64,000 nucleotides of DNA. Origin: Amphiura filiformis. Taxonomy: Eukaryota > Echinodermata > Ophiuroidea > Amphilepidida > Amphiuridae. The DNA is taken from assembly GCF_039555335.1 (NCBI RefSeq), contig NC_092647.1:14680094-14744093 (forward strand), written 5' to 3'. The position numbers and the translations under genes were made by a program. Shown one piece after another: positions 14,601-45,500 of the stretch. Every line of letters begins with the position of its first letter. Position 1 is the first letter of the stretch. The notes below the pieces were generated by a model, which saw only the letters and a list, made by a program, of their open reading frames with translations, did not search any database and had not been told where the DNA came from.

Positions 14601-17408
14601 CCTACTTACAAGTTTGATATTTACATCGGATGTGTTTACTTTCCATGTAAATGTAAGCTCGAAACACAGCTTCAAGAGCATTTGGTAAACACAATTGATA
14701 GTTTGAGATCTGAAAAGAATGCTTCCATCATTATTTTGGGTGATTTTAATGAATTTGATACATCTCTTGTGGAATGTCATGCCAACATGAGCCAGCTTGT
14801 TACCTTTCCAACGAGGAAAGATGCCACCCTTGATAAAATTGTCACTGATATCCATTCGTTTTATCAAGACCCAGTTAAACTTCCTGCCATTGGTAAGAGC
14901 GATCATTGTTGTGTTGCCTTACACCCAAACAAACAAGTTCGCAAACCTAAAGCTGATCATTTGTATGTGCGTCCTTTAACTGACTCTTCAATTCGCAGCT
15001 TTGGGCAGTGGATAACTCTTGAAAAATGGGAAGCGATTTACGCTGTTGAAAGCGCTGATGAGAAAGCATCTGTTTTGAAGAACTCTTGTTGGAAAAATTC
15101 CATACTCATTTTCCTGAGAAATGTGTCAAACACAGGGAGGATGACAAACCCTGGCTGACTGAATCCATAAAGCGGTTAATAGACCAGCGTCAGAAAGCCT
15201 ATATGTGTGGGAATATGGACACCTATAAACAGTTACGTAATAAAGTGCAACGCGAGATTGTCAACGCAAAAACCAGCTTTTACAATAAGAACATTGATGG
15301 GTTGCGTTGTAACCAACCGGGTAAATGGCACAAATATGTTAAAAACATAGCTGGAGGAAAATCCACTGCAAAGACCATAGAGATCGATGGAATCTCAAAG
15401 GATCCTCCTATTATCGCTGAAGCAATCAACAATCATTTTGCTGATATTTGTAACCAGTTACCCCGCTTGATCTTAGGAACCTGTCCGCTTATTGCCCTAC
15501 TCTACCTCCGCCATGGATATTACCTGGTGAAGTTAACAAAAATTACGTAACATTAAGTCTAACAAGTCCACGCATCCGCTGACATTCCACCGCGAGTCAC
15601 AAAGGAGTTTGCATTTGAACTAACTGAGCCATTAACTCACATATTTAATTGTTGTTTAAACCAAGGTGTGTTCCCAGCAGTATGGAAAACCTCATCAATA
15701 ACTCCGATACCTAAAACACCTAATGCTAAAAGCCTTGATCAACTAAGGCCTATCAGCCTTACCCGCCTCAACGGTAAGATCTTTGAGAGCTTTCTGGCTG
15801 AGTGGACTATGGTCGACTTTTACCCTCACATTGATAAACAGCAGTACGGTAATGTGAAGGACAGTTCTACTACTCACTACCTAGTGGATGTTGTAGACAC
15901 TGTCCTTAAAGGTATTGATGAGGCTGGCCATTATGCAACCTTATGTGCTGTTGACTTTACCAAAGCCTCTGACAGGATTAATCACAATATTGCTGTTCAG
16001 AAGTTAATTGATATAGATATTCGCCCAAGTATTATTCCTGTCATTAGTAGCTTTTTGTGTTATCGCACCCAATCTGTTAGAATCAAAGGCAGGTCATCAG
16101 CATGTCAATCTATTTCGGGGGGAGTGCCTCAGGGCACTAAATTTGGTCCGATTATTTTTTCCGCTATGGTCAATGATGCTGCGTCCGAAGCCCCCCTGAA
16201 ATGGAAATATGTTGATGACCTGACGTTTGGTGAAGTTGTAAATGCTAAGACAGGTGGTTGTTCACAACTGCAAAAAGATCTTGATGGTTTAGGTGAGTAG
16301 TGCAACAAAAATGACATGCTACCAAAACCTTCCAAATGTCATATTATGCACATCAGTTTTTTGAAAAGGGAGCATTCCTTCAATCCTTTGACTCTCAATG
16401 GATCTGTTTTAGATGTTACTCAGAATATGAAACTTCTTGGTATCACCTTAGAAAGTGATCTTAGTTGGACTACTCAAGTCAATTCAATGATATCTCGCGC
16501 CTCTAGACGAATGTATATGCTTTATGTTTTGAGACGCTTCAATGCTTCGTGGGATGATTTATCTTCAGTTTATCAAATGTACATTCGGCCTATCTTGGAA
16601 TATGCCAGCCCTTTATGGCATACTAGTATCTCCAGAGCACAGTCTGAGCAGATGGAGCTTGTCCAGAAGCGGGCGTGTCGTATCATCCTGGGCCAGAGCT
16701 ACACATCTTATCGGGCTGCTTTGGAAAAACTAGGTTTGGTTTCCTTATGTGAGAGGAGAGATCAGCTGTTGGTGCGATTTGGCCAAGGTTTGCAAGCGTC
16801 TGCTAAACATTCTCAAATGCTGCCTAAATCCAAAGGTGATCGGCACGGTAGGAATCTTAGGTATGCCCAGCAGATTGATCCTCCTCGCTGTAAGCTTAAC
16901 CAGGTACTTGCAATCTACCATTCCTCAAGTTGTTCAGCGTCTTAATAATCTGTGATTTTTGCCTTTGAATGTTATGCTATTGTATGCATTTTGTTGTTGC
17001 TTTGTATGTTGTTTTTATACATGTTTTTAATTGTTACCCAGGCGTATCAGGTCTGTGACCTGCTTTCTGGATTGCTTTATACCTTAATAAATAAATAAAT
17101 AAATAAATAAATTAGCATGATTAAAACCAGAAAAAGTTGTAAATCAGGTGCAGGGGGTGTCTGGGGATGTGCCCCCCTCAGAATTTGAAGAATTTTGAAA
17201 ACTTAGTCCCAATTGAAGGCATTTGGTGTACCATTTTTACATTATTATCAGGAATATGTGGGTTCAATATGTGACCTGCTCTGAGTCAACCTGCCATATT
17301 CACTCAGCCATTTCGAGATACGGCGAGTCAAAGTTGAGTCATTATGTTAGAATGCTTTGAAGGAAGTTTCAAAAAATGTTTTTGAATATTATTAATATGT
17401 TTTATACC

Positions 17409-17450
<42 letters not shown>

Positions 17451-20400
17451 GACAGTTGGGTATACAAAGTTTGGCACAGCGCCTGATAATAATGTAAAAT
17501 ACATTAAATTACACAACGTTTCGGGTATAACCCTTTTACAAGTGTGAGCAAATGCAATGATACCTTACAGAAGCAAGTAAAAAATGTGTGAGGCCATGAA
17601 CAAAGGGAAGAAAAAACCCATTGGTAATGACCAAACACTTACATAATGAGATAAAGAAAAGAACAAACCAAGCAAAAAGGAGAAGAAAACATCCTTTGTG
17701 CCTGACAGAACTTGTATACAAAAACAGTGTTAAGTGAGAAAATGATAACAACAAAAAAAAGTAGTACAGCAGAAACATGATAAAATAAAGCAAAATTGGG
17801 TAGAACCGCAGATACATGAAAAACAATGAGTCATAAGCTAAAAGTGTCAAATTTGCTGTTTAAGCCACCAGGCTGAACAGTGCCGAGCTTGTAAATGAGT
17901 TTATGTTCTGCCATGATGCGATCCTTGCTGTTTCCTCTGGCATTGATGGCAGAGGTTACCTTGACGTCGTTGATGGTACATGTGGAAGGGGGGTTAAAAT
18001 GCCGCGCTACAGGAAAACCATCAAAATTGCATTTGATTGACCGCAGGTGTTCAGTGAAGCGGTCGGCAAGTCTTCTGCAGGTTTCCCCGACATAGAGGAT
18101 GTTGCAACGGGTGCAGATAATGATATAAACTAGATTACAAGAAGTACAAGTGAAATGGTTGGCTATGTTGAAGTGTCCGGAGGGACCCTGGATTTGATGG
18201 TATGATTCCATGGTGACATAATCGCAAGTGTTGCAGCGACGTCTGCCGCAGCGGTATGTGCCGATGTTGGTAGTGTCCGGTGTTGGGGAGAGGGATGAGA
18301 TGCTCTAACAAGATGGTTCAAATGTTGCGAGCTCTTCTGAAAGCAGTGACCGGAGGATCCTTGAAGATCTCTGACGTGGTGGGATCAGATTGGAGAGTCT
18401 TGAAATTTTTGAAGATGATGTTACGGATGGGGATGTTTCTGGGGTGATATGTGAGGACTAAAGGGGTGCGATTGGATTTGTTCTCCCCGGATTTCTGCAA
18501 AGCATGGTTCCTATTAATTCCTTTAACCCGTTGGTAGGCAGACTGAGTAATATCTGGTGGGTAACCACGTTTCTCAAAGAAACCAACCATCTCTTCAGCA
18601 GCATTGTCGAAGTCATTCTGCTCACTGCAGATGCGTTTGGCCCTGAGAATTTGGCTGTATGGGATGGATTTTTTACAGGCTGGTGGGTGACTGGAGTCAA
18701 ATCGGAGGAAGTTACTTTGCTCATTTGCTCACACTTGTAAAAGGGTTATACCCGAAACGTTGTGTAATTTAATGTATTTTACATTATTATCAGGCGCTGT
18801 GCCAAACTTTGTATACCCAACTGTCGACCATATAAATAACCAGCGTCACGCAGAACTTCGACCTCTATATATATATATCTTTTATATAATTTGACCTTTA
18901 AATATTTTCTGTAAAACGTTTTGTGTTTGCAGCGTAAAGAATTGACTGTATACTGACCCCCGGGACTGACCGTAACCCTTAAATGAATACAATTACCATG
19001 ATTACTGAACTCAATAGCTTGTAATCCTGAGTTCTAGATCTAATCCTGCTAATCCTAATGCTAATCCTAACCCTAACCTTAACCCTAACAAACACAATTT
19101 TACAGGTCAATTGACATTATTATTGGCATTCAAACTTTTCAGCAGCAGGTGTTGAAGGCAACAAACAAGATGTTCAATGTGAGCATAGAAGACTAGCCAT
19201 AGAAGACACAATCATCAGCAATTCTAACGTAGGATTCAATGATGTTGCTGGGTTGGACCAAGCTAAGCAAATTCTCAAGGAGGCTATCATTATGCCAGTA
19301 CAGTACCCACAGTTATTCACAGGTAACATTTGACACAGATCACACACCACTTAGACAGTTACGGTGCCAAAAAGGAGGGGGGTATGCCCCACTTTCCTCA
19401 AGACAAAATAAGAAATTTGAACATTTAAAACTTTTTGTGCCAAAAATGCAGACCAATTTTTTTTTCATTTTCCCCCTTTCCACCCAGAAAATATTCCTGG
19501 TGCTGCCATTGTACTAGGGCCAATTCATATTTTATATTTGATGTGCAACAAAATTAATATCTGTTATATAATCTGTTTCTATAAGTCACTTTTATTCTCT
19601 AACGAATGTTTGTTGAAGAAAAAGGGAGGAAAGAGGAACCAAGCAATAGTTGTCAGGTCGAGGAATGCAATATATATTGCACTAAAAAAAGACAGTACCC
19701 AATGTTAAAACATGCAAACTTATATTTTCTGCTTGCAATGATTGCATCATTTATTTAGATGTATAAAAATTATGTACACCAAGATTTGGCATGAGCTGGA
19801 AGGGGGACAAGGATTTATTGGAGCAATATTTTGGCAGACCAAAATGTAAAACAGCACAGACCCAATATATGATATGGGGATGTGTAGGGAATAGACCACA
19901 TGTTGTGTGAATTGTAATCATGGCCAAACTATGCATGGTATAAACTGCAAACAGTATGATTATTCTACTCAAATTTTTCTAGGTGGAAGGAAACCGTGGA
20001 AGCGCATTCTACTCTATGGTCCACCAGGTACTGGAAAGACCCGTCTAGCTCAAGCTGTTGCCAAAGAAATCAACTCGGCTTTTTACTGTGTGTCTAGCTC
20101 AGATCTGGTTTCTAGTTGGGTAGGAGAGAGTGAGAAGTAAGTAAAATATTTTACTTTGGTAAAGAGTAAAGCAAAATATTTAATTTAGTAAAGTGTAAAG
20201 CAAAATATTTTCCCTTGGCATGCTTTGTAAAGTGTAAATCAAATTATTTTACCTTGGTATTGTGTAAAGCAAAATACCTTGGTAAAGTGTATGTAAAGCA
20301 AAATATTTTACCTCGGTAAAGTGTAAAGCAAATTATTTTACCTTGGTAAAGTGTAAAGCAAAATATTTTACCCTGGTCATGTTGATAAAGTGTAAAACAA

Positions 20401-23400
20401 AATATTTTACCTTGGTAGTGTGTAAAACAAATTATTTTACCTTGGTAAAAGTGTAAAGCAAAATATTTTACCTTGGTAAAAGTGTAAAGCAAATTATTTA
20501 CCTGGTATAAGCAAAATTATTTTACAAGAACCGGATGGGATAAGAAGGGTAAAAAGGGGATGTTCTTTGTGTGAAAAAACAAAGGCACACACTGATGATT
20601 GAATATACAGAGTTTCAAGGGAAAAATATTTCAATATTTTTTTTAATTCACAAAGATACTGGATACTGTGTCTTGTAGACACCAGGGAACATGCAATTGT
20701 GGCATACGTTGATTGCTGGTTTTGGGCTGCATGCATGGAGCAATCACATAGAGGGAAAAATAAGATGGCCGGTTGAATTACATACCCTTGCAGTCGGTTA
20801 AAAATCAAGTTTGCCCACGGATTGCTGATTGCTTTCACAGTTACTGCACACACCATACTATCTTGAAACTGTCATGATGCATGTTTTAAAACTTTGTTTT
20901 GTCCATTTGCTTCTGAATCAGGTTGATCAAGGAACTCTTCCACCATGCCAATCAACAAGAAGGACGATCGGTAAGTTTCTGTGAACTCTGAGGAGATAAT
21001 CATTGTTAATTAAAAGAGAGAGAGACACAAAGTTTGAAATGTGGTACCAAAGGTATCCACTAACATGCCACACAAACAAAAAGTTCACTGGGTAGCTACA
21101 AAACTGAAAATACACAATGTGTAAATAAAGTACAATGAAGGTACCGTTTTCTCACTGATTTGGCATAAAATCATTTTATTATGGTCTTGTCCATAAAATT
21201 AAATCATATTGCAAGAGGTTTTACGATTTATATATAAATGTGACAGTGGACCAAAATGACACAATGTTTTTTATGCCAGTAAACAATGTGAACGATTTGT
21301 GAGACCTATACTGACAGGAAAGTGAGTTCGGTTATAATGACATACTATCACTTCTTCTTGTTTTCATTCTTTTCCTTTGATGTTATTTTCTTCTCTTTTT
21401 GCAATTCCTTTTGCTTTTTTGCCAATGTGACAGTGGACCAAAATGACGCAATGTTTTTTGTATAAACAATCCCAGCAAACACAAAACGCTTTCGACATCA
21501 TTCGCAAAAGGTTATAAAAGGTTGTCAGAAAAGCGTTTAAATGTCGGGTTATATAAAGGGTATATCAAGGGTATAAAACGTTTTCATAACATTAATAAAC
21601 ATTTTATGATAATCTACTGCCAGCAAACACAAAATGTTTTACAGAAAACGTTTAAATGTCGGGTTATATAAAGGGTATAAAAACGTTTTAATAACATTCC
21701 AAAAACATTTTGAAAACTTGATACAAAACATTCTAAACAGAATGTTATTTTGGGGTTGAAAAAATATTTTATAAAAATGTTTGCCCAAAATATTTGCAAT
21801 AACGTTTTAAAAACGTTTTCATGACTTTATATAACCCGACATTTAAATGTTATTAAAACGTTTTGAAAAAACATTTTAAGAACATTTCTGGGTTTACTGG
21901 GTGCAAATATTTTAACATAATGTTATTTAAGTGTTGACAAAATATTTGGCAAAAAATGTTTGCAAAATTAGTTTACAATACCATTTTGAAAACATTTTAG
22001 AAATATTCTTGCAGTGTGTTTTCATACAAAACGTTTTAAAACGTTTTCATGACCTTTATATAACCCAACATTTTAATGTCACTTTATTAAAATGTTTTTA
22101 CCTAAACCAAAAGCCAAACTATAACTTATTTAAAACGTTTTTAAAACGTTTTTGTGTTTGCTGGGATGTGAATGATTTCCAAGACAGATATTGACAGGAA
22201 AGTGAGTTGAGTTATTCCTTCTTTCATTTTCATCTTGTTTTCATTCTTTTGTTTTGTTGTTATTTTCTTCCATTTTTACTTGTCTTCCTTTTGCTTTGTT
22301 GCTGATAACATACGAATGTGACAGTGGACCAAAATGACGCAATATGTTCTAAATTATGTAAACAATGTGAAAGACATACCTATAACATGCCCATACTGAC
22401 ATATTGGTCTTTTTTAGAATGATTTGAAATTAAACATTTGCATTGCAACAACAAATTAACCTAATATACTTATAACATATGAATGTGACAGTGGACCAAA
22501 ATGCCGCAATGTGTTCTATGTAAACAATGTGAAAGACTTACCCATAACCATACCGCGGAAACATGGCATGTTGCCCAGGGGATCGACGCTAAGTCAGGTA
22601 CCGTGTGAGCAAACTCAAAAATAGCGCAAACAGCGCGAGCGTACACAAAAGAAACTTCTCGTGTAAGATAAGCGATGTCGCTACACTCACAGAAAAAAAT
22701 ACACAAATTGTGTAAAATTTTACACAACTTCGATGTACGTATAGAACTCCAAAACAAATAGGTATTTTATACATAACCATGAATTATGTAAAAAAAACAT
22801 AGCAGATAAGTAACAAAAATACTTAAATATTAGGTAAAATATTTACATAACTTTTATGTAGATTTTTTACCTCAGCTATTAGGTATTTTACTACATAATT
22901 GTTATGTAATATTTTACACAAAATGTGTAAAAAATACATAACATTTATGTAGCATATGAACCCTATAACAAATAGGTATTTTTCACACAACCTTGAATTA
23001 TGTAAAAAATACATACCAGTTAAGGAAAAAAACAGGTCAATAGGATCGGGGCTTTCTTTCTTTCTTTCTTTGTTTTATTTTATGCTGAAACATAATTCAT
23101 GATAGATTTGAAGTCATCAGATCTTGGTCAACTGTTAGATTCATTCAACAATTTCATGCATGAACTATTTTATTTTGTTGTTCTTTTCATTCTATCAGTT
23201 CAACCCGCTATCTAGTTAATGTTCAGTGTAAGCATTTCTCTCTCGCATGTACGATACAATGCTACAGTACACTAATGCATTGAGGCTTCAAGCCTAATTC
23301 GAGTCCCACGCTTGGTACACTATGCTGTATGCTGCATATTTATCGAAGTCATGTCAATGCATATCACGTCTATAGTACACTGTCCGTATTACCAAATGAG

Positions 23401-26400
23401 AAGATCTCCTGTGGTATTTGTGATCTATCTCAACACGTACACACATTGCTATACACGCAGTGCCGGTCCGTCGCAGTATACAGTACAGTACGTATTGATC
23501 GCGGCAATGTCGCGGTGCATGTGTGTCAATTCTAATGTTGATCAATCTAGCAAAATGAACCCATAAATAGCCATTTATAAAGTCTCAAAGAAATCCATGC
23601 ATAACTTATCGAACGAATCTCCAGTTTGGTTCAAGTTTAATGACTCCAAAACCTACCTATTTGAATGAAGTTTCAGCAGGTATGCGCTATCGCTACCCGA
23701 TCACACACACGTCGTGTCGCCATTGCTTTCGGTCTGCGCTATAATTTTTTACATGAAATAGGTAAAAACTACACGTGTGTCGATTTACATAACACGTTAG
23801 GTAGATTTTCTCCAATCAGCGAAGTATTTTTGGCTGACATTTTACTTCATTTCATGCAATGATTACACAAACTAGGTAAACTAGCTTCGTTACAGTTCAA
23901 ATATGTATTTGAAGCATTTACAAACTGGCATGGTAAAAGTTTTTGACAAAATTGTGTATAATTTAATTTACATCGTGTTTTTTTACATAACGTGTGAATA
24001 TTTCTCTGAGTGTAGGTCTGTACGCTGTACCGGCGTCAGCTGAATTCGAGTACGCTTAGAGGGCACAGGCATGGACAATTCCAATCTGTGTATTAATAAT
24101 CTAAGCCCATAACATACCCATACTGACATACTGATCTTTTTTAGAATAATTTAAATTAAACATTCATATTGCAAAAAAAAATTAACCTAATATCCTTATT
24201 ACATATGATGTGACAGTGGACCAAAATGACGCAATGTGTCGTATGTAAACAATGTGAAAGACTATAACATACCCATACTGGGTGCACACCAGTAAATAGC
24301 CTCCATTGACTTTCTGTACAAACAGGGTCCGGGAAAACATCTTGTTTTTTTCTTTGAGCTGAGAGTGACTCAATTCTTCAAAACTCATTCTATCTGCAAG
24401 TTGAAGGTCAGATAAAGACAGGCAGTTCAGTGAAAACAGACAGGGTCCAGTGACTTTTTGCAGAAAATTGCTAACTAGATCACCCTGTAGGCCTAGCCCA
24501 CACTGCTTACGCCAGCTCGCAAATAGCTTGGTTTTTCTAATATGTAACACATTTTGAAAGTTTAGACAAATTGTCATAAAAAGTTGGATCCTGCTCATTT
24601 TTTCTTGTACAATCTATTTCTTAGGCCTAAATAAGGAATAAATATGAATCAGGGCCTAATAGTTGGTTTTAAGCCTTTTCTAATGTATTACATTAAATCA
24701 CATGGCACTTTCTCACTTTTCGAAACACTGATTTTTCTTCCAAGGGTACAGGAGTTGCATTTACTGGTGTGCACTCTACTGACAGACAACTGAGTGACAT
24801 CTACACACTTTCTTTCCATCTTGAATTTCTCACTTTTCATTTCTTTTTTCTCATTCCTTTCCTTTTTCCCCTTCTTTCTTCTTCCTTCCTTTTCTTTTTT
24901 TTCAAGGTGATATTCATTGATGAAATAGACAGCATATGCCGCACCCGCAGCTCCCGAGAGGAAGAACACACCCGCCGTATTAAAATGAACTCCTTAAACA
25001 GATGGAGGGTGCTGACAGCATGGAGGATGCTGCTGAAAATCATCTATTTCTCATGTGTGCTACCAATAGACCGTGGGAATTGGACACAGCATTTCTTAGA
25101 AGATTTCAGAAGCGTGTGTACATACCATTACCAGATGGGTAAGAAAATAACAAAGCTATATTATGGCAATAGATTTCATGAAATCAAGAATGAAACCAGA
25201 GAAAACTACATTAAAGTTTTTGTCAGAGAAGAACGGCACTTGTTTACATTTTGAGAGCTTGCAGAGCGTATACACGGAAGTGGAGTTCTGATTGGCTGAA
25301 TCAATCGTCTGACAATCATAGCAACATACCGATAATCTGATTGACTGACTGTGTGTCAAATTGTTGGTCGGCATAGATCGGCGCCCTTGAAGTGAATACA
25401 AAGTTCCACGTATGTCGCACATTAACAGGGCGCTCGCGTCAATCTGAGCAAGGGACTGCTGTTCTTCTCTGAAACACGTTGAAATGCTTTCTGAAAGGCA
25501 AGTATGTTTTCAAGTTTATGTTTAAGTTTTGATTCAATGTTTACAATGTCTTATGAAATAGCCCATAAAAGCCAATGTAATGTCCTTGTATTCTGGGTAT
25601 TTGTTAATGTCTTTGGCTAAAAGCTACTATGAAAATAAAATTTAGTTTTTTTATTTAATTTAGGCTTGAAAGCTTTCATACCGGTAATAAGTTTAAAAGA
25701 AATTCCTGGTAATTCAGCTTGTTTACAAAGAATGAGTGATGAGTGGTAGTAAAACCAAATTTAAACTTCTTCCGAACCTGCAATTACCACGTCCTACTAT
25801 CACCATGTTCATTGGCTATCTCTTAATATTGCTATCCTCAGTACATAGGCGTAGATCCTGGGGGGAATCTCCCCAATATTTTGCCGGGGGATGGTCCATA
25901 CAACCAATGTTGACGTCTGTATATGGGTTTGCTGACCAAATTAACCTCATATTTGGTCATTCTAGCCCCCAAAGTGCAATTTTTTGCGCGATTCAGGCAA
26001 ATTTATTCCACTTTTGCACCATATTTCATCAATTTAGCTTCAATATTGCAAAAATTTTTCATGCGCACCGCATGCATTTGTACCTTTAACTTATTCTGTT
26101 GCCAAAAGGGGATTGATTCACTATATTTCAAGAAATTTCTTCTAACTCCATCCCCAAATGTCAAAATGAAATCTACACCACTGCTTCAGTGTCATTGGCT
26201 ATCTCTTAAGGCTACATGCTCTTTTTGGTTGAAATTTTTGGCGGGAAATAATCCCGCACAAATATAAAGTAATCTTTTCCCACAACTAAATATCATAGTC
26301 GGAAATTAATGATGCATCTGGTAGCTTAGATCATAACTTTCATATACTTTAGTTGCAATTATCCCAGAAAATTCTTGATTTGTTTTTACAGAGTCTTGAA

Positions 26401-29400
26401 TTGACGAGGTTTATGATCAAAAAGCGTCACTTTCGGTATATTTTGAAATTGAGGCCATAACTCTTCTCAAATTAGCCCCAAATCATAATTTATTATATAC
26501 ACGTGTAGCAAACCCCATTGGGAATAATTGGACGTTGTTTGCGGAGCCTAAATTTGATTTTATTTTATTTCACAATATTTCTAGTGTGAGAATTTTGACC
26601 TGTCAATCCCTTTTCGGATTTCGCATCCGAATTCATTAAAATGTGATATATTGAATTAATAATGAGTACGCTTACCTGCAATTAACACTTCCCGGTACCA
26701 TTGTGCATCTGGTGACAGCCAATATTTTGGCTTAAAACAGTCCCTTCCTATCATTTTTGAACAAAATATTCCTCGAAATTACGTACGTGACACGTATATA
26801 TTGGGACAGCGAGGAAATAAAGAGAGCCATTTACGGTGGGGTAGGCTATTGGAAGCTATTATGGTACCAGGCATGTCAAGCAGATGCATACATAAGGGCG
26901 GTATATTCAAATGCTATTGTCTGGATCATTGAGACAGTATCGATCGGGCAAGTAAACTTATACACGTGGGGTGTGTTGTCGCTCCCTGGTTTTGACATAA
27001 ATTACAAGGGCGTCTTGAATGACCCAGCGTTTTTATTATATTCATTCAAAAATTAATCGTCGTTTATTACGAGTCCTAAGAGTCATACCAGTTCAATTCA
27101 TCAAAATTAATTTATATTAAATGAAAAACAAACAAACAAGTAGAGTCCAATGTCTTACTATGACTGTATTACTACCAAAATCTGCTTTTAATAAACGTGT
27201 TGATATGTTATCTTTGAAAATCGTCAGACATTAACCACAGGTACCGCCGTGGCACAGTGGCGTCTTTCACTGTTCAGCATAGTGTATCGGCAGTGGTTCG
27301 AACCCTGGTGTAAATTTTTTTTTTTTTAATTCTTTTTACTAATACGCTGTGCCGTTTTTCAAATTCTCCCCTGAATGAAATTCATGGGCAAGTACCCTTA
27401 ATATTGCTATCTTTGGTAGATAGCAGATGTGATGCAAGCTAAATGAGTCTGATGTTGATCAGAATCAAAATTTAGTTTTCAATTTCATTACATGAGCCAT
27501 TTTCAGAGCTTTATTTTGCTGCAAACCATTAGACTTGTGGTTCCACAGATAAGGCAATTTCAGTGTTGCTCAGAACAATAAAATACGAAGGAAGTTAAAT
27601 ACATTTACTCTTATTGGCCAGATCTCAAAATCAATATTCCCTGACATCCAACTCATTTTGCTTGATCACTTCCCATCTCCAAACACACCAGACCTGTCAT
27701 GTGGTATGGTAACAGTAAACATCATATTTTTGCTATCTCAATGTCACAATTCCAAACTTTGGTCTGAGTGAATCAAATCTTGTTCCACAAAGAAGTGACA
27801 GAGGGGATGTTTTCCCAATATGTTTCTCCATACATGTAACATACACACATCTTGAATACTTTCAGGGCTGCTCGTATGGCTATTCTTAAGATCCACATTT
27901 CATCTTGTAACTTTGGGTTAACTGACGAAGATCTGGAAGCCTTTGCTGCAAGGACAGATGGCTACTCTGGCAGTGACTTGTCCAATGTGATTATGACAGC
28001 ATTGTTTGAACCTATTAGGGACATGCAACAGGCTACTCATTGGAGACAAACAGAAGGTACTGTTTATCTGTATTTAAAAATTGTGTGTGGAAATTTAAAT
28101 AAATTAGTGTAAAGGAGAAATGCAGGGGTGTAGCCAGCTTTTTTGGTTGGGGGCAAAATAAAAAAATTGGGGGTAATGACGAAAAAAATTCCCGGTTGCA
28201 TTATTTTGACCTGATATTATCAGTGGAAACTGTAGTATAAAGTCTTTGAGTTTCCGAAAAAGGCTTTATTGGAACAATAAGTGTGCGTAGCGTGCCAAAT
28301 TTAGTATTTTGACACAATTTTTGCCCATGATGGAGGTGAAAATGGTTGTACTAGTGACAATCTGTGCGCGTAGCGCGCAAAAAATTTTACACAATTTTGG
28401 CCGATGAGCGAGATGAATTTTGGTGGAAAACAGGCTATTTACCCCTTTTTTCCTTTGCCTTCCCGATTTTCTCTTTCATTTTTGGTCAGAGGAGCACTTT
28501 GCTCTTTCATTTTTTGTCAGGGGGCACTCTGCGCTAAAAATGTGCGCAGGCACATAGCCAGGGGTGCTAAAATGCTAAAGGCCCAAAAAGGCTCATTTGG
28601 GAGTTTAGCGAGCGAAAAAATCAAGCTTTTTTATCCCTTTTTGGTCCAAAATCAGCACCCCCAAAATAAATCCTGAATGTGCGCTAAGCGCTAAGTACAA
28701 AAACCTTGGCAACACTTAAGCTTAAAGATGTAAATTGGTGTTCTCTTGCCTCTTACCTCTAACATCAATTTTACTGGAATTGAATACAATTTTGAAAAGA
28801 CCAACAGGCGACAAAATAAAGCCTGCTGAAGTAGGATCAGTCAGCCTGGCATTTTCATTGGTTTACTAAAAATTCACCACAAAATCTGAAGGTTTTTTTG
28901 CAAATATTCTTTCTGCCAAATGTTCAGCCAAAATTAAATAAATAAATTTTGGCCCCAAAATGGACAATTTTTCATGATTTTAGCCAAATTTTTAAAAAAA
29001 GTTCTCCAAAATGCAAGTACTGGGTCGGTTAGGTCACCTAATTATGGTAAATGTAGTGATTTGAGTGTTGGCCACCCAGCTGCTAGTCATTTTACAGCAT
29101 TATTCATAACAACAGTATTTTACCATAAATTTTACAATAATATTAATATACTGTTTGAAATCCTTAAATACAGAAGATTCATTATGGGAAAATGACTGGC
29201 AGCTGGGTAAGTCCTTGGTTTATTCAGATGAAACATAACAGTATATCATTCATTATAATTGTCCACAGATGGCAAATTCATCCCTTGCTCTGCCGACCAT
29301 CCCGATTGCATCAAGAATAAAACCATGAAGGATTTCCCAGCAGATCAAGTACAACCGAGAGACGTCAACCTGGAAGACCTTGTCTCATCTCTCCAAACAT

Positions 29401-29474
29401 GCCACCAGACTGTCAACCAGGAGGAATTGGCTAAGTTTGAGGAGTTTACTAGTCATCTTGGACTAACAGGATAA
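11521..29474 (+). CDS. VPS4/SKD1-like AAA ATPase (8 exons seen; first coding exon not found)
   Basis: This is a meiotic-clade AAA ATPase closest to VPS4, the hexameric ATPase that disassembles ESCRT-III polymers on endosomes and at other membrane-scission sites. Eight exons give about 418 residues. In order they hold an MIT-like helical region (residues 1-75 of what is seen), a linker, [13 protein letters not shown], Walker A GPPGTGKT, pore loop SSWVGESEK, Walker B VIFIDEID, sensor-1 [10 protein letters not shown], arginine finger FLRRFQKR, sensor-2 region [10 protein letters not shown] and a VPS4-type C-terminus ending FTSHLGLTG. The linker lacks VPS4's Lys/Glu-rich stretch, and the C-terminal beta domain is shorter than in VPS4A/B, so this is a divergent paralogue rather than canonical VPS4. 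VPS4 is about 440 residues, so only roughly 12-25 N-terminal residues are missing. All junction phases agree. One A appears to be missing at 24982-24985. The introns are packed with transposons. Confidence 0.88.
11895..12215 (+). repeat. Dispersed repeat, copy 1, in VPS4-like intron (second copy 25845-26190)
   Basis: It shares CATAGATCC/CGTAGATCC, ATGGTCCATACAA, TTTTGCACCATATTTCA and GATTCACTATA with 25845-26190. Confidence 0.75.
12739..12853 (+). CDS. VPS4-like exon B (third MIT-like helix)
   Basis: Acceptor tattttag, donor gtatat, 38 codons plus one base. It encodes [20 protein letters not shown], resembling MIT helix 3. A minisatellite begins within about ten bases of the donor. Confidence 0.8.
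12856..13432 (+). repeat. Minisatellite with TATGCTGATATCAG units
   Basis: A tandem array of roughly 20-bp units around the palindrome CTGATATCAG. Variant units alternate (GGCATACTG, ACATAATACAG, GGCATATGTGGCC) and form a higher-order pattern that recurs several times. It starts right after the donor of exon B. Confidence 0.95.
13555..13672 (+). repeat. Direct repeat on the left of the non-LTR element (partner 17148-17262)
   Basis: GGATGTGCCCCCC, CCCAATTGAAGGCATTTGGT and TTACATTATTATCAGGAA occur here and again at 17148-17262 in the same order. They flank the MITE plus retrotransposon block. Confidence 0.8.
13757..14449 (-). mobile_element. CCCAGCAAACAC-end composite element, copy 1
   Basis: Terminal CCCAGCAAACACAAAACG and internal AACGTTTT, TTATATAACCCGACATTTAA modules match the copy at 21471-22165 in reverse orientation over about 690 bp. 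Internal CCCAGCAAACAC ends (14018, 14303) show it is made of smaller units. Its last few bases were lost where the retrotransposon begins. Confidence 0.85.
14450..17113 (+). mobile_element. CR1-like non-LTR retrotransposon, 5'-truncated
   Basis: It starts inside an APE-type endonuclease ([41 protein letters not shown]) and runs through a reverse transcriptase to a 3' end with (AAAT)n at about 17084-17113. The 5' truncation and short tandem 3' tail are typical of target-primed reverse transcription. It sits in a VPS4-like intron against the end of a CCCAGCAAACAC element. Clade assignment (CR1/Rex-like) is a best guess from the RT motifs. Confidence 0.9.
14466..16945 (+). pseudogene. Non-LTR ORF2 remnant (endonuclease + reverse transcriptase)
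   Basis: The endonuclease part reads in one frame to about 15158. The linker and RT read in another from 15086, with further damage at about 15470-15600. RT landmarks are [42 protein letters not shown] and the catalytic [14 protein letters not shown] at 16297-16299 interrupts the frame where GE-stop-CNKND would otherwise be continuous. A thumb/connection region follows ([20 protein letters not shown]). Inactive. Confidence 0.9.
17340..17447. mobile_element. Left part of a CCCAGCAAACAC-type element split by the Penelope insertion
   Basis: TGTTTTATACCCTTTATATA matches the element interior and then runs into a (TA)n tract (17411-17447). The right part resumes at 18858. Confidence 0.65.
17450..18826 (-). 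mobile_element. Penelope-like retroelement fragment with inverted terminal copies
   Basis: Minus-strand coding matches the end of a Penelope-type RT and its GIY-YIG endonuclease. It is flanked by two 105-bp inverted copies (17450-17554, 18722-18826), as seen in PLEs with pseudo-LTRs. It lies in a (TA)n tract inside a CCCAGCAAACAC-type element. The 5' RT portion is absent. Confidence 0.9.
17831..18724 (-). pseudogene. Penelope-like ORF remnant (RT C-terminus + GIY-YIG endonuclease)
   Basis: The upstream part reads [37 protein letters not shown] and TAFRRARN, the conserved stretch before the PLE endonuclease. After a frame break come [11 protein letters not shown], cysteine pairs ([13 protein letters not shown]) and the endonuclease core [20 protein letters not shown] with DRFTEHLRS. 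At least two frameshifts lie at about 18212-18590. Confidence 0.9.
18858..18935. mobile_element. Right part of the split CCCAGCAAACAC-type element
   Basis: After (TA)n, TTTGACCTTTAAATATTTTC and CTGTAAAACGTTTTGTGTTT match the element's right end. Confidence 0.65.
19050..19090 (+). repeat. Interstitial telomere-like repeats
   Basis: Degenerate CTAATCCTAA then CCCTAACCTTAACCCTAAC units, 50 bases upstream of exon C. Confidence 0.7.
19143..19322 (+). CDS. VPS4-like exon C (start of AAA domain)
   Basis: Acceptor acttttcag, donor gtaaca. It begins by completing an Ala codon and runs 59 codons plus one base. It contains [20 protein letters not shown] and [10 protein letters not shown], the conserved lead-in of VPS4-type AAA domains. 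Confidence 0.92.
19983..20136 (+). CDS. VPS4-like exon D (Walker A, pore loop 1)
   Basis: Acceptor atttttctag, donor gtaagt. It encodes [20 protein letters not shown] and ends SSWVGESE plus two bases of a Lys codon. The aromatic pore-loop Trp and the ATP-binding Lys are present. The donor merges into a tandem repeat. Confidence 0.97.
20137..20520 (+). repeat. Minisatellite abutting the exon D donor
   Basis: About ten units of roughly 35-40 bp built on GTAAAGTGTAAAGCAAAAT and ATTTTACCTTG. The array starts at the 5' splice site itself, whose gtaagtaaaatattttac is a unit variant. Confidence 0.95.
20922..20970 (+). CDS. VPS4-like exon E (short exon)
   Basis: A 49-base exon (acceptor gaatcag, donor gtaagt). 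It completes the Lys codon of exon D, then encodes [16 protein letters not shown], which matches the VPS4 segment between pore loop 1 and Walker B. Confidence 0.9.
21236..22560 (+). repeat. Tandem array of about 170-195-bp units, interrupted by two mobile elements
   Basis: GTGACAGTGGACCAAAATGA recurs at about 21239, 21427, 22319, 22487 and 24210, followed by GTAAACAATGTGAA and ATACTGACA text. Removing the element at 21471-22165 restores the spacing. The last unit lies beyond the TIR element at 22682-24014. Confidence 0.9.
21471..22165 (+). mobile_element. CCCAGCAAACAC-end composite element, copy 2 (complete)
   Basis: It begins CCCAGCAAACACAAAACG and ends CGTTTTTGTGTTTGCTGGG. AT at 21469-21470 and 22166-22167 looks like a 2-bp target duplication, because sister units of the surrounding array read AAACAATGTGAA without the insert. 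Confidence 0.9.
22682..24014. mobile_element. TIR element of 1.33 kb, non-autonomous
   Basis: TACACTCACAGAAA at the left is mirrored by TTTCTCTGAGTGTA at the right. The left third has repeated palindromic ACATAA/TTATGT motifs. No convincing transposase. Confidence 0.7.
24815..24904 (+). promoter_or_regulatory. Very long polypyrimidine tract before exon F
   Basis: About 90 bases almost entirely C and T run up to the acceptor tttcaag at 24906. This is far longer than most metazoan tracts. Confidence 0.8.
24907..25138 (+). CDS. VPS4-like exon F (Walker B, sensor 1, arginine finger), one-base frame disruption
   Basis: The exon is preceded by a roughly 90-base polypyrimidine tract ending tttcaag, with donor gtaaga. 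It reads [20 protein letters not shown] then HTRRIK in one frame. From 24986 on, the family-like sequence ([34 protein letters not shown]) is one frame over. The exon is 232 bases where 233 would keep the frame. One missing A in the run 24982-24985 would explain this, and both flanking exon phases agree with 233. Confidence 0.93.
25212..25475. mobile_element. MITE with GTTCTTCTCTGA ends (inverse copy 50050-50285)
   Basis: TCAGAGAAGAACGGCA at the left is mirrored by GCTGTTCTTCTCTGA. The interior (AAATGTAAACAAGTGCCGTT and GCTCAGATTGACGC on the complement) matches 50050-50285 in reverse orientation. Confidence 0.8.
25845..26190 (+). repeat. Dispersed repeat, copy 2 (first copy 11895-12215)
   Basis: Same family and orientation as 11895-12215; this copy is longer internally. 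Confidence 0.75.
26191..27241 (+). other. Intronic sequence, nothing identified
   Basis: Within the intron between exons F and G. A 99-codon open frame at 26757-27056 has no recognisable protein features and no splice context. Confidence 0.5.
27242..27327 (+). repeat. tRNA-like SINE head or tRNA pseudogene
   Basis: A box TGGCACAGTGG (27250-27260) and B box GGTTCGAACCC (27295-27305) are both canonical and 34 bases apart. A 13-T run (27315-27327) follows, a good Pol III terminator. I could not fold a full cloverleaf, so a SINE head or pseudogene is preferred over a working tRNA. Confidence 0.7.
27866..28056 (+). CDS. VPS4-like exon G (sensor-2 helical domain)
   Basis: Acceptor actttcag, donor gtactg. 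It completes a Gly codon and encodes 63 residues including [28 protein letters not shown] and [16 protein letters not shown], matching the small helical subdomain of VPS4. Confidence 0.95.
28110..28700 (+). repeat. Degenerate repeat with GTGCGCGTAGCGCGC motifs
   Basis: Repeated GTGCGCGTAGCGCGCAAAAA-like motifs and polypurine/pyrimidine runs, with no coding support. Confidence 0.5.
29269..29474 (+). CDS. VPS4-like terminal exon H
   Basis: Acceptor gtccacag. It encodes [17 protein letters not shown] to the stop TAA at 29472-29474. The last residues, [16 protein letters not shown], correspond to the conserved C-terminal helix of VPS4 (LKKFTEDFGQEG-like). The proline/cysteine-rich segment before it is shorter than the VPS4 beta domain. 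The end of this exon is tandemly duplicated downstream. Confidence 0.93.
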
Positions 29475-32842: not shown

Positions 32843-33074
32843 CTGCTGTGATTTTCATTACACTGTACACTACATACTGTATATTGCCTTGTAGGTAAAA
32901 CACTTACCAAAAGAGCTTCTTAAATGCTAACTCCATTGTGTGGCTCATGTAGGTCATCATTGTTCTTTTGGTAAATGTTTGCAAAAACCCTTGCTCATAT
33001 TATTATATTCTGTTTATGTACATGCATATCAATGCTTTGTAAGTACGATTTTGAAGATTTTGTTTTTAACTTTG

Positions 33075-33724
33075 TGCATATTACTGGCAATTCAAATGCT
33101 TGAAACACTCTGGTTAGTTTATATTTGAATTCAGTGACCTCAAAAACCTATAAAAATACTTATTACAAGCTATGGTTGTTCATATTTTGCTATTTTGGGG
33201 GCGAAATGTCGAAAAAATGGCGTTTTGGCGGCCATTTTGAATTTTTTTGCAGATTACTGGCAATTTGAATGCTTGAAACACTCTGGTTAGTTTATATTTG
33301 AATTCAGTGACCTCAAAAACTTATAAAAAGACTTATTACAAGCTATGGTTGGTCATATTTTGCTATTTTGGGGCGAAATGTCGAAAAAATGGCGTTTTGG
33401 CGGCCATTTTGAATTTTTTTGCAGATTACTGGCAATTTGAATGCTTGAAACACTCTGGTTAGTTTATATTTGAATTCGGTGACCTCAAAAACTTATAAAA
33501 AGACTTATTACAAGCTATGGTTGTTCATATTTTGGCATTTTGGGGGCGAAATGTCGAAAAAAATGGGGGTTTGGCGGCCATTTTGAAAAAGTCCACTGAA
33601 CCAACATATATATACATTTTACGCAAAAAAGCTTTCCGGATTCGGTTTCAGCAGCCAAAATGGCCATAGAATCCACTCGTCTTATAAAAGATTTCCAAAA
33701 AATGTTCTCATTTGCCCACCCCTA
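33075..33724 (-). repeat. Right terminal inverted arm, with about 172-bp tandem units
   Basis: TATTACAAGCTATGGTTG recurs at 33161, 33334 and 33506, giving periods of 173 and 172. The units are more alike than the left arm's second unit, which implies local amplification or homogenisation. Confidence 0.9.
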
Positions 33725-39500: not shown

Positions 39501-42500
39501 AAACACAATACTGGTCTCTATTAGGCTGAGTCTTGTACCTATATGCTTCCAAGACAGCCAGCTCACGCAGTAGTAAGGTCTTTTCCTGTATGACAAAGAA
39601 CATGATTATTGATCCAGATACTAAAGCGGCAAAAGAAACATGTATCGCGTACTTAATAGACCTTGGAAATATCCTGCTATATCAACAAATGCCAGGGTTT
39701 GAACCCAGGACCATGTGCTTGGTTTTCATTATCTTACCTTGTTGGTTTGTTTCAGTGTTTTCTGTATTCTTTCAACAGCTTGGGGATGTTCATCAGGACC
39801 ACACCTGAAAGGGCAAAAGGGACAGATGAGCAGATGCAGTAGGTGCAGTCAGGACAGTTACCATAGGGTACTAAATAAAAGACACTAAATTTAATGCCCA
39901 TGTGACCCATGGGCGCCACCATACCAAGACCACCAAGTGACCAAGTAGATGTGCTACAATGCTAAGAGATAGGAATTTTTCAGACAAATATCATCAAAAT
40001 CATCCAATAATCATGAAAATTTAATAAGCAACTTAATTATACATGGGGATTCTGTTTATTTAGTATGTTTTCAAGAACTAAATTTTGTTTTGGTCGACGG
40101 AAAAAAAAGTTATCAACGGAAACTCTTACAATAATACTACAAAGTTGCAAAAAAATGACAAATTTGGACATGCATCCCGTGTTTCCAATTGAAATACACA
40201 GGAAGACCACCCGCTGTGCCAAAGGTCCCTTTTCCAGACATCCTGTCTAGACGCTGTAATGTCAGCGCCCATCTGGTCACGTGGGCATTAAATTAAGTGC
40301 CTTTATTTAAATGCGACTGCAGGAGGGTGCACGTGAGATTTCATACGGGCAATGAACATTTAGCTTTATTTTAAGCCCTTGGTATAACTATAAGAAACTT
40401 TAAAACCCTATTGAGCACTTACTTAAGGTAACTTGTCAACTGCTTTTCATTGTTGTAACTCTTGGCCAAGTAGTTGAGTAATCTGTCACCAGCAAGAAAG
40501 TACAGGTTCGTCTTACCCTTCTTCCCCTTTTCTGCACCTAGCAGCTTGATTGCCTGCAAAATTGATTACACATTAGGCCATCTTAATTTGATAGTTCTTC
40601 TCAAAACCCCCGCATGCATTAGTAGAATCGCCCCGCTTTTTGCGCATTATTCATTTTTTCCGCTATTTATTTGTCTAAATCCACCACACAAAAATCTCAA
40701 AATAACCTAAATCGTAAATCTCAATAAAATTCTTCACCTTGACCACAGTGTGACCTCCTTGAGAGATGAAAAGGTTGTCTATTCTTGTCAAAAAGCTCAT
40801 CCCACAGATAAAAAAAAAATTAAGTAAAAAAAAACAACACATTCCGCATTAGGTTTTTAACTTAAGGGCTTTGAGACGAACTATTAAATTAAGACCGCCT
40901 TATACAAGTACACTGCTATGAGATGTGCCGTTTCTAACTATAGGCCCAAGGCCCAAGGTGACATCAATGGTGCTATTTTCCCGACAGTGTCCACCTAAAT
41001 TGAAATTGGGCAAGGAATTAACTGCTCATTGTCTTTGCACATTACCCCATTGTACTTTCAATTATTCAATAATAAATCCCCGTGTTTTGTTGACTCAGAT
41101 AGTTATGTATTTCGGGGATTTAAAAAATTTGGTGGGTATGTTTCACCTGAATTTTGAGGTGGGTCTTTGGGAGCTGATGGCGTATCGGTAAAAGGGGGTC
41201 TTTTGGAGCTGCGAACAAGTAAAATGGGGACTTTTAGAGCTGCGAACAGTCAAAATCAAAGGTCTTTATTGGCTTTCTGGTTGAAAATCACCTGGAAAAA
41301 ACCAGAAATATGAGGAATGATCAGTTTTGGAGTCTTTTAGCGCTGAAATGATCAAAATCAACAGTCTTTCTGAGTTCTATTTTGGTCAAGGTCTTTCGGA
41401 GCTGCGAAATCCAAAAAGAGGGGTCTCTCCGAGGGAACATACCTGTATGGTCATTTGTGTTAAGTGCCCCCCCCCCCACCCAGGTGTATTTTCTGTCAAC
41501 AACAACACACCAGTCACATCTATTATTTTTCTCACCTGTAAATGACTAAGGTTTGAGACATGAGTTCCGCAGCACATATTGGCTTCTATACCTTCTATAT
41601 CAACGATTCTAACCAGACCTACATGGTCATCTGGTAAACCTCTGGTTCTCACCTGCACGTGAAGATGGCAAATCGAACAAATAAAGTTTAAGATGCAAAA
41701 ATTAGAATAAAAGATCCGAGACATAAATCCTACAGCAAATACTACTCGAAGACTAAAATGATTCTTGTAAGATAGTTGGTGAGCATCAATTTTGTTTCAC
41801 ACATAATTTGACAAAATTACACCCCTGCACAGGCCCTTACGCAGGATTTCATTTTGGTGGGGGGGGTGCTGATTTTGAAAAAGTGGACTTTTTTCGGGGC
41901 AAGGGGGCAATTTTGTGAAAAGTGGATTTTCTTCCCAAAATGTGGACCTTTTTTGTCCAAAAAAGTGTAAAAAACGTGCGTACAGGTCTACCCCTGCACA
42001 TAATCTTCTGGTAATCCGTCGTTCTAACCTGCAGGAGAAGATGGGAAATTCAATAGCACATATTTTTGAATCCATACATTGTACTGTCACAAACCCCTCA
42101 CGGAAATATCCTGCGCCTCTCAAGCCACTACCGGTCCTGCCGGGACTCGAACCCACGACCCTGGGTTTAAGAGGCGAGCGCGCTAGCGTATAGACCAAAA
42201 GAGGACTTCCCCGTCAGGTCTATAACACTAACGCACTTATACCTCCGTGACATGCTCCCCCCTCCTCGTAAGGCGCGTCCTCGCCGCCTTACTTCCTCTC
42301 TGTTTAAACTGGTCGTCCTTGATACAAGGCATACTCGGCCAGACTGGTCGTCCTTGATACAAGGCATACTCGGCCAGCCATTTTGTGAACGCCTAACCCT
42401 TTCCGATGGGTGGATCCCCCCCACCATTTTTGTCACAAACCCCTCACGGAATATCCTGCGCCTCCTCAAGCCACTTCCGGTCCTGCCGGGACTCGAACCC

Positions 42501-45500
42501 ACGACCCTGGGTTTAAGAGGCGAGCGCGCTAGTGTATAGACCAAAAGAGGACTTCCCCGTCAGGTCTATAACACTAACGCACTTATACCTCCGTGACAGT
42601 ACTTTCAAACTTTATTAGTACATTCCTACCTCAGCCAGTTCAGGTGAGCCAACTTCAACCCATCTTGGAGTCATTGGTATGGCTTTACGTATCGCCTCGT
42701 TCACTTCAGGTTCAAGCTCACCAAGCTGCTTGCTGTCAATTTTGGCTGTGTCTAATTCAATAAAAGACTTATCTTTTCCTAAATCCCTGGTAGAATTATG
42801 AAAAGGCAGATAACACAATATTTAAGAAATAAAGGGTAATGCTTTATCCTTTACACCCAAATAATGTGTCCGAGGCAGTAAAAGCGTAAATAATGGGTGA
42901 GGCGCGGCCGAACCCATTATTTAAACGCTTATACTGCCGAGACACATTATTTATGTAAAGGATAATGCTGCACCCTTTATTTCTATTCTATTACCATAAA
43001 ATAGTGCGATTTATAGAGAAAATATCATTTTTTGGCACAAATATTTTAAGTTGTTTACTTCAAGGTGGAGCGCGTGCTCGTAAGTGACAGCGCGTGTCGC
43101 TGAAATATTGCACGCGTAACCAAAGCGTGATGCTGTGCGTAGAATGTGTTCGGCGCTTTCGACCCATTATTGCAGAATAATGGGCTCTCACGTGACGCGT
43201 TCAACAAATCACAGTGCGCGATTTTGAATAATGGGTCGTGGAGGTAATAGAATAAAAATTAAAATCCCCAATAATGATTAACTTTCATGTATATGTCAGC
43301 TCTAATTCAGTTATGTCTGAAAAGTCGAACATTGTTCTGATACTGAGAGAAGAAATTAGCTCTATCAGTGTTTTTACACAAATTCAACAAGAGGCTTGGG
43401 GATGGCTTTAAAATCCAACTCCCAGTTGACTACCATTACCGGGCCATCACCTTGGCAGAATTGGTGGTAGAACTCCAAACAATAGAAACCAGGAACAACA
43501 ATAGAAACAAGGCTCAATTATCAGTTCTGTCAGGGTGCTGGTGAGTGACTGGTGGTTGGGGTCTTGCTGCATTGAGATGGTCTAGTTGTGTCCAAATTGA
43601 CCCTTTTGATCGCATATGTTATTTTAAAAACTTCAGAGCGCGATCTTGCCACAACGGGCCGGTAGGCAGTCGCACTACGGCACAGAACCAAAGTTACGTG
43701 AGAACCACAGTCGCCACAACAAGCATAACACCAATACATGCGCAGTATTATAGACAAACTGATGACACTTACCATGATGTTGTTTTCCATCCATATTTGT
43801 TATATGCAATAGCTGTGATGAGATGTTGACCTGCAAAACACATAGCAATTCAAAAGCATAGCATTTTATTTGTTATTTATCTTTGTGTCTATTATACAAT
43901 TTATGATACGCATCGGGAAGTAGTCAAATCACCCAACACATCGTGGCTAGTAGTTTTGACTACCTGGTACTTCCCCTCAAAACATGTTGTATTTTATATA
44001 CTATCCCCAGTTGGCTTGCAAATGTTCTCACTTTGGCGTGAACTTTATCAAATTTTGTCTGACAATTTAATAGGGATGTTTTGACAGACACATGCAACTG
44101 GGGAATCACACTTGACAGGTGTAATAGGTCAGGGGTGGGTATGTAGGTGTGAGGGGTGTGTGTGGGGTGCACAAGCAGGGGGGAGGTGCGTTTGTAAATG
44201 CCGTCAAACGAGGACCTACATATGGATACACACCGTAAAAAACGAGGACACACCTCCAAGCGAGGGGCGTCCTCGGTTTGAAACTATGTCCAGGATGACG
44301 TAAATGATGCAAATATGCATATAAGATAGCATATAAGATAGGTCCCCCATAGCGGGTATAGGACAGGTCTCAGTTGGATAGTAAGTTGTCTGGTGTGTTT
44401 GCGTGGTCCTCGTTTGAACGCATTTACAAACAGGGGTGCGTGTGTAGGGCTGTACCTGGACATTGAGGGTATTCAGTACAAATGACCATGATACAATGAT
44501 ATGCTGCTGCCATTGCAATTTCTGCAAACATGGAGAGGGGAGGCATTCTCAGCCATTTGGTTTATCAATGTCCCTTCTTTCAAGGTCATTTAGTGGTGTA
44601 TGGATGGGTCATTTTTCAAAAATGTTTAGACCAATAGCCCAAATTTGCTTCATTGTAGCCAATATTTTCAAAATTTATCAACAATTCCTGGACATTTTAT
44701 CAAAACTAGACATTACCTTTAAAATTTGTTATGATTTGGGCTCCAGGTATACTGATGTGTCCTATTGCCCCCTCACCCTGACCTGCCCGCTTGCACCCCA
44801 ATGGTGGATTATTTTGCATTTGGCAAAACAGGAATTTTTTTAATCCAAAAAAATTAGTGCTGTATTTTTCTGGAATCGGGAGTGATGAGTGTCCAACCCC
44901 ACCTCCCTGGTGATGGAGAATTACAAATAAAACACTGGTGGTGGTTAACCAGTTTTTCTGGTACAAAAGGTTATAATTATGTGGCATGATCTGGTCCATG
45001 GAGGCCAAATGATGCATTTTTGAAAATTGAGTTACTATAATTACTTCCATATAAACATTATGCTATCATATACTGAAAAAACTTGGTTTTTAAGTTTTTA
45101 AGTTGTGTGATGTCTATTTTCTTATGTATTCTATTGTTTTTTTAATCCTTTATTATAATAATAATAATATTTTTGCCTTTATCTCAATTTCAAATTTGCC
45201 GCCTTTGGCCTCCATGGACCAGATCGTGTCACATATTAACAGTTTTAAAGTTTTCTTCTGTTATGTACAAAATTAGCAATATTTACCTGAGTGTTGCTGC
45301 ATGTGATCAAATCGTCTCTGCCAATCTAAAACCTGCTTGACTGTGGTACCTGCTTCAAGTGGTGTTTGCATGAAAAAGATAGCATCACTCCCACGCCTTG
45401 TTATACGCAATACTTCAATGTCATTTACCTGTTGTTTAAAGAAATATGAAGAGCTTGGTTCTAAAACGTGTTAAGTCCACAAACACATGTTTCTGATTTA

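Follow-up and report, generated by a model that had tools for sequence, protein, structure and literature searches.

In this study, a 64-kb stretch of DNA (contig NC_092647.1, positions 14,680,094 to 14,744,093; called the window below) was found to carry a complete miniature element with long terminal repeats (LTRs). The element is 514 bp long and spans window positions 42598-42085, with the minus strand as its sense strand. As judged from its sequence, it is very probably a terminal-repeat retrotransposon in miniature (TRIM) with a tRNA-derived promoter block in its LTRs, and it is most likely another Helenus (TRIMp3), to which it was matched by the published description of that class. Its anatomy, the spacing of its promoter boxes, its similarity to hand-typed tRNA sequences and the predicted strength of its LTR hairpin could be shown. 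Raw sequence alone, with no repeat library at hand, was enough to recognise a TRIM with a tRNA-like promoter as a complete insertion. An earlier, sequence-only reading of this DNA had proposed a complete TRIM whose LTRs carry a tRNA-like RNA polymerase III (Pol III) promoter, parallel to Cassandra, and the sequence supports that proposal. The same reading knew of no description of an animal TRIM with a tRNA-derived LTR; this has to be corrected, since Helenus/TRIMp3 is published (PMC10886601). The element class is already described, and the part worth testing is the panhandle that the element RNA is predicted to form.

The two LTRs are 168 bp each, and their pairwise alignment showed 2 substitutions and 2 one-base indels; an ungapped repeat search recovered them in pieces only. 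In the sense direction, the 5′ LTR occupies 42431..42598 and the 3′ LTR 42085..42252 (these and the other features of the element are on the minus strand). Both start with TGTCAC and finish with GTGACA, and between them lies an internal region of 178 bp (42253..42430) without sign of protein. The Pfam scan, which covered minus-strand frames only, gave nothing at E 0.001 for the two open frames overlapping the element (41800-42213 and 42170-42559). A GTAC target-site duplication flanks the pair on the right (42599..42602) and on the left (42081..42084); the match is 4 bp only, with a chance of approximately 1 in 256 if the bases are equally frequent. The G+C content of the element is 55%, compared with 41% for 4 kb of flanks.

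Downstream of the 5′ LTR, the element contains TGGTGGGGGGGATCC. A site resembling a primer-binding site (PBS), TGGTGGGGGGGA (42415..42426), starts 4 nt past the LTR, after AAAA. At the other end of the interior, a polypurine tract of 13 nt, GAGGAGGGGGGAG (42255..42267), lies 2 nt ahead of the 3′ LTR. Alignment confirmed the paired 168-bp direct repeats with TGTCAC...GTGACA ends that the sequence-only reading had described, and the GTAC duplications outside them, the position of the PBS-like TGG site 4 bases inside one repeat and the 13-base polypurine tract 2 bases before the other were likewise found in the sequence as claimed.

Each repeat contains a tRNA-like block, which speaks for a different origin, namely two insertions of a short interspersed element (SINE) or tRNA pseudogene, or a tandemly duplicated unit with a spacer between its copies, instead of an LTR element. 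Such an origin is extremely improbable, however, because the repeats share both their ends, the 4-bp duplication lies outside the pair, and the polypurine tract and PBS-like site are situated at the two ends of the interior; moreover, an A-rich or simple-repeat tail was not seen in the sequence, a tail of the type found in long interspersed elements (LINEs) not having been searched for. A single unit of a tRNA-derived SINE was rejected on the same grounds, that is, the paired repeats, the 4-bp duplication outside the pair and the missing A-rich tail, with the same limit for a LINE-type tail.

The promoter block of the proposed TRIM is present in both LTRs. Box A is TGGTCTATACA in the 5′ LTR (42533..42543), with its last base off the consensus, and TGGTCTATACG in the 3′ LTR (42187..42197); box B is GGTTCGAGTCC in both (42489..42499 and 42143..42153, respectively). 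In both LTRs the box A 7-mer TGGTCTA is at nt 56 and box B at nt 100, giving a distance of 44 nt, which is the canonical type I tRNA spacing. When LTRs were dinucleotide-shuffled and searched on either strand, the box A 7-mer was placed 43–46 nt ahead of box B in 1 of 20,000. The longer box A pattern TRGYNNANNNG was matched by the 3′ LTR but not by the 5′ LTR. Box B alone is not telling: besides the two LTR sites, the window holds two further matches to its pattern, GGTTCRANNCC, which makes four in all.

The block was also compared with a hand-typed set of 20 animal tRNAs. The best of these was tRNA-Lys-CTT, with 37 of 47 ungapped positions identical and the CTCTTAA anticodon loop in register, and the whole-block score against the set was reached by none of 1000 shuffles. 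A second set consisted of 18 distinct phage tRNAs, 3 of 21 having been excluded for carrying the 22-mer that fetched them; here 2 of 500 shuffles reached the score of the whole block. Of the tRNA-like block described in the sequence-only reading, the exact box B was confirmed for both LTRs, with box A 44 nt away; the acceptor-like pairing also claimed for it amounts to 5 bp only (GTCCT/AGGAC).

Transcription of the element by Pol III is likely, judging from the signals in its LTRs. Three extra T residues directly ahead of box A make a TTTT, and the sense strand of the whole element has TTTT at two places only, nt 53-56 of each LTR. We propose that the run in the 3′ LTR (42197..42200) terminates Pol III transcription of the element; its twin lies in the 5′ LTR (42543-42546); the 340 nt separating the two contain no TTTT. 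At tRNA genes, Pol III starts 10–20 nt upstream of box A. In the cycle proposed for the element, for which we infer the RNA ends and an autonomous partner, TFIIIC and Pol III would bind boxes A and B of the 5′ LTR, and the RNA would start at approximately LTR nt 36–47. Shortly after initiation Pol III would have to pass the 5′ TTTT, a requirement that the layout of Cassandra implies as well; it would then read through the interior and terminate at the TTTT of the 3′ LTR, yielding an RNA of approximately 356–367 nt. With a start 10–20 nt ahead of box A and a stop at the 3′ TTTT, a repeat (R) of approximately 10–20 nt would be present at each RNA end. Proteins of an autonomous element, probably Gypsy, would prime, copy and integrate this RNA, producing the 4-bp duplications.

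The same TRIM might instead be transcribed by RNA polymerase II (Pol II) from a TATA box, with boxes A and B as passengers of a tRNA-derived SINE fragment inserted in the LTR. TATAAG is present at LTR nt 12, and SINE insertion was proposed by Kojima as the origin of the class (PMC10886601). However, the boxes keep their canonical spacing, with box B exact in both LTRs, and the sense strand of the element has neither AATAAA nor ATTAAA. Transcription in this way is considered unlikely.

Several points weigh against a TRIM driven by a tRNA-derived Pol III promoter. The TATAAG mentioned above is compatible with Pol II use. The box A presumed to drive this copy, in the 5′ LTR, has A in place of the consensus final G. 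The TTTT-free stretch is common in shuffled sequences, being present in 1124 of 2000 shuffled by dinucleotide and in 1346 of 2000 shuffled by mononucleotide, and thus permits, but does not prove, a Pol III template; the lack of further TTTT, not being significant, was dropped as statistical evidence for such a template. The part of the block before box B scored modestly against the hand-typed animal tRNAs, with 6 of 1000 shuffles doing as well, and at shuffle level against the 18 phage tRNAs (315 of 500), so that support for the 5′ half of the block depends on the hand-typed set. None of the 20 hand-typed tRNAs fits the PBS-like site well, the best being tRNA-Ala at 9 of 12 positions, and a 9/12 fit was reached at 2 of 160 interior offsets, the PBS-like site and one other. 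One copy only was found, with no family seen. A tRNA search of the repeat had been suggested in the sequence-only reading; ARAGORN and Rfam called no tRNA in the element, and Rfam matches up to E 10 comprised only two 13-nt T-arm matches to tmRNA at 8.4 bits. The block is therefore tRNA-derived and not a tRNA, and a functional tRNA gene with a cloverleaf fold was ruled out. Membership in Helenus is weakened both by this missing tRNA call and by the use of hand-typed tRNA sequences.

Folding of the LTRs predicted a strong hairpin with a 20-bp stem and the presumed R in its loop. In the 5′ LTR the hairpin extends over 42523..42583 (z-score -7.0 against dinucleotide shuffles, with 0 of 300 as low) and in the 3′ LTR over 42177..42237 (z-score -6.7, again 0 of 300). 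The stem is formed by nt 16-36, with one bulge, paired with nt 57-76. In an RNA running from one R to the next, the two arms would be parted, with one immediately downstream of the 5′ R and the other immediately upstream of the 3′ R. When the predicted RNA was folded from starts at nt 36, 40, 44 and 47, the arms paired every time, with 19.76 expected pairs, and the arm-to-arm duplex had a predicted energy of -31.3 kcal/mol. After shuffling the 3′ arm 200 times (start at nt 40), none of the folds was equally stable.

With R in the loop of the LTR hairpin, the RNA ends could pair, which would bring the R copies together and help first strand transfer. On the strength of these folds, we tentatively suggest that the RNA closes as a panhandle setting its short R copies adjacent, a built-in strand-transfer device that is perhaps general to Helenus. 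If true, such end-to-end pairing would explain first strand transfer in a Pol III-transcribed LTR element with a very short R; that the pairing has this role is nonetheless rather doubtful. We lean slightly toward the hairpin having arisen incidentally, through inverted duplication of the region around box A, and playing no part in strand transfer, as the palindrome could derive from one local inverted duplication and two near-identical LTRs allow no covariation test. A z-score of about -7 with a stem of 20 bp speaks against such an origin, as do the position of the loop, which matches that of the R region deduced from box A and TTTT, and the super-hairpin folds reported for Cassandra (PMC7215508). 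A literature search on RNA circularisation with panhandle terms found nothing.

In the interior, repeat search detected an identical tandem duplication of a 35-bp unit (42308..42377), and each copy was predicted by folding to be able to form a small hairpin; a role of the unit in packaging or dimerisation is only a guess. Two other properties of the interior were considered and rejected. A specially stable fold was not supported (z-score -0.6, with 51 of 200 shuffles equally low), and self-priming was discarded, as no stretch of at least 8 nt in the element is exactly complementary to the initial 30 nt of the interior.

No second copy of the element was found within the window by blastn or nhmmer. 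The element gave no match to phage records or plasmid records (distant mode), and neither did 24,001 window bases searched against phage records (near mode). Viral contigs were scanned six times with LTR patterns and twice with interior patterns, half of these eight scans giving no hit, and genome contigs were scanned twice, once without a hit; this led to 58 loci being fetched (2 of them from genome contigs); all were compared with the element by blastn and nhmmer, and none was taken as a relative. Nine of the viral-contig loci were rejected, the match falling in an ARAGORN tRNA-Ile gene in 9 of 9; the nhmmer match to these extended to approximately 60 nt, with E 0.009-0.08. With blastn, which gave 252 rows at a limit of E 10, the longest match to the element was 27 nt. 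Outside the tRNA-Ile loci, E 0.01 was reached by 7 blastn rows from 3 loci (L011, L028 and L038), with matches of 18–22 nt, and these also were not taken as relatives.

Approximately 31 nt from the element, an exon-like open frame is present at 42630-42780 (minus strand), with a possible GT splice donor at its end; if it is unspliced, its stop codon overlaps an AATAAA. Judging by its position, the element may be intronic or situated where a gene ends, on the same strand as this frame. Elsewhere in the window, 27250-27325 (plus strand) contains a box A, TGGCACAGTGG, and a box B, GGTTCGAACCC, 45 nt apart and followed by a T run; this appears to be a SINE or tRNA relic, and Rfam gave no tRNA row for it up to E 10. 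A broken non-LTR retrotransposon lies at 14451-16942 (plus strand), with a reverse transcriptase (RVT_1, E 4e-15) and a sub-threshold endonuclease match, and a GIY-YIG endonuclease piece, presumably Penelope-like, at 17834-18304 (minus strand). An AAA gene, apparently split by introns, occupies 19895-29471 (plus strand), with matches to AAA, AAA_lid_3 and Vps4_C in order; frames split in this way point to a eukaryote. Tandem repeats were observed at 33071-33587 (172 bp, 3 copies, 95% alike) and as arrays with nested periods at 12860-13405 and 20139-20511, including 22/118/159 and 30/69/99 bp.

Helenus was described by Kojima in 2024 as TRIMs of 311-1263 bp with tRNA-derived LTR sequence, and its hosts include Arthropoda, Brachiopoda, Chordata, Ctenophora, Mollusca and Nemertea as well as fungi and the lycophyte Selaginella (PMC10886601). 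If the host of the present element lies outside these six animal phyla, the range of such TRIMs would be widened. The class shows conservation of boxes A and B and has a PBS and a polypurine tract. Animal Helenus have 4-bp target duplications and Gypsy-like PBS regions, and wasp and molluscan families were aligned with tRNA-Lys (PMC10886601). The present element is similarly short (514 bp, the class being below approximately 1000 bp), has two LTRs and no coding capacity found by Pfam, and carries boxes A and B within LTR sequence of apparent tRNA derivation; a polypurine tract and 4-bp duplication are likewise present. Regarding the PBS, it has TGG in the right place, with a best fit of 9/12 among the 20 hand-typed tRNAs. 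It differs in box A, which begins with TGGTC, whereas most Helenus have TRGCY. Pol III transcription of Helenus is expected but unproven, Cassandra being the only validated case named (PMC10886601). Among the matches listed, judged by their titles, no further publication dealt with TRIMs whose LTRs derive from tRNA.

Cassandra resembles the proposed TRIM in having a Pol III promoter in the LTR and in the shortness of R, which in Cassandra spans 18 bp from transcription start to terminator (PMC10886601); the word terminator is used once in that paper, for Cassandra. A conserved strong super-hairpin between the LTRs of Cassandra, described in PMC7215508, is a further likeness. Cassandra differs in that it is found in plants and carries 5S rRNA in its LTR, the present element being tRNA-like instead; an Rfam search up to E 10 gave it no 5S rRNA match. 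The biv-TRIMs (PMC6934838) are also miniature animal LTR elements with a short interior; they differ in terminal repeats of 202-218 bp, an interior of 77-80 bp and a polypurine tract that is mostly GGGGAGA, and 'polymerase III' is absent from the main text of that paper. A parallel to the end pairing is CYC5:CYC3 of Ty1, in which 5′-3′ pairing within the element RNA aids reverse transcription (PMC5454406). This is different from the present case, as Ty1 is a full autonomous element and its motif is 14 nt long, at nt 155-168, whereas the pairing of approximately 20 bp in the present element, predicted only, directly flanks the presumed R.

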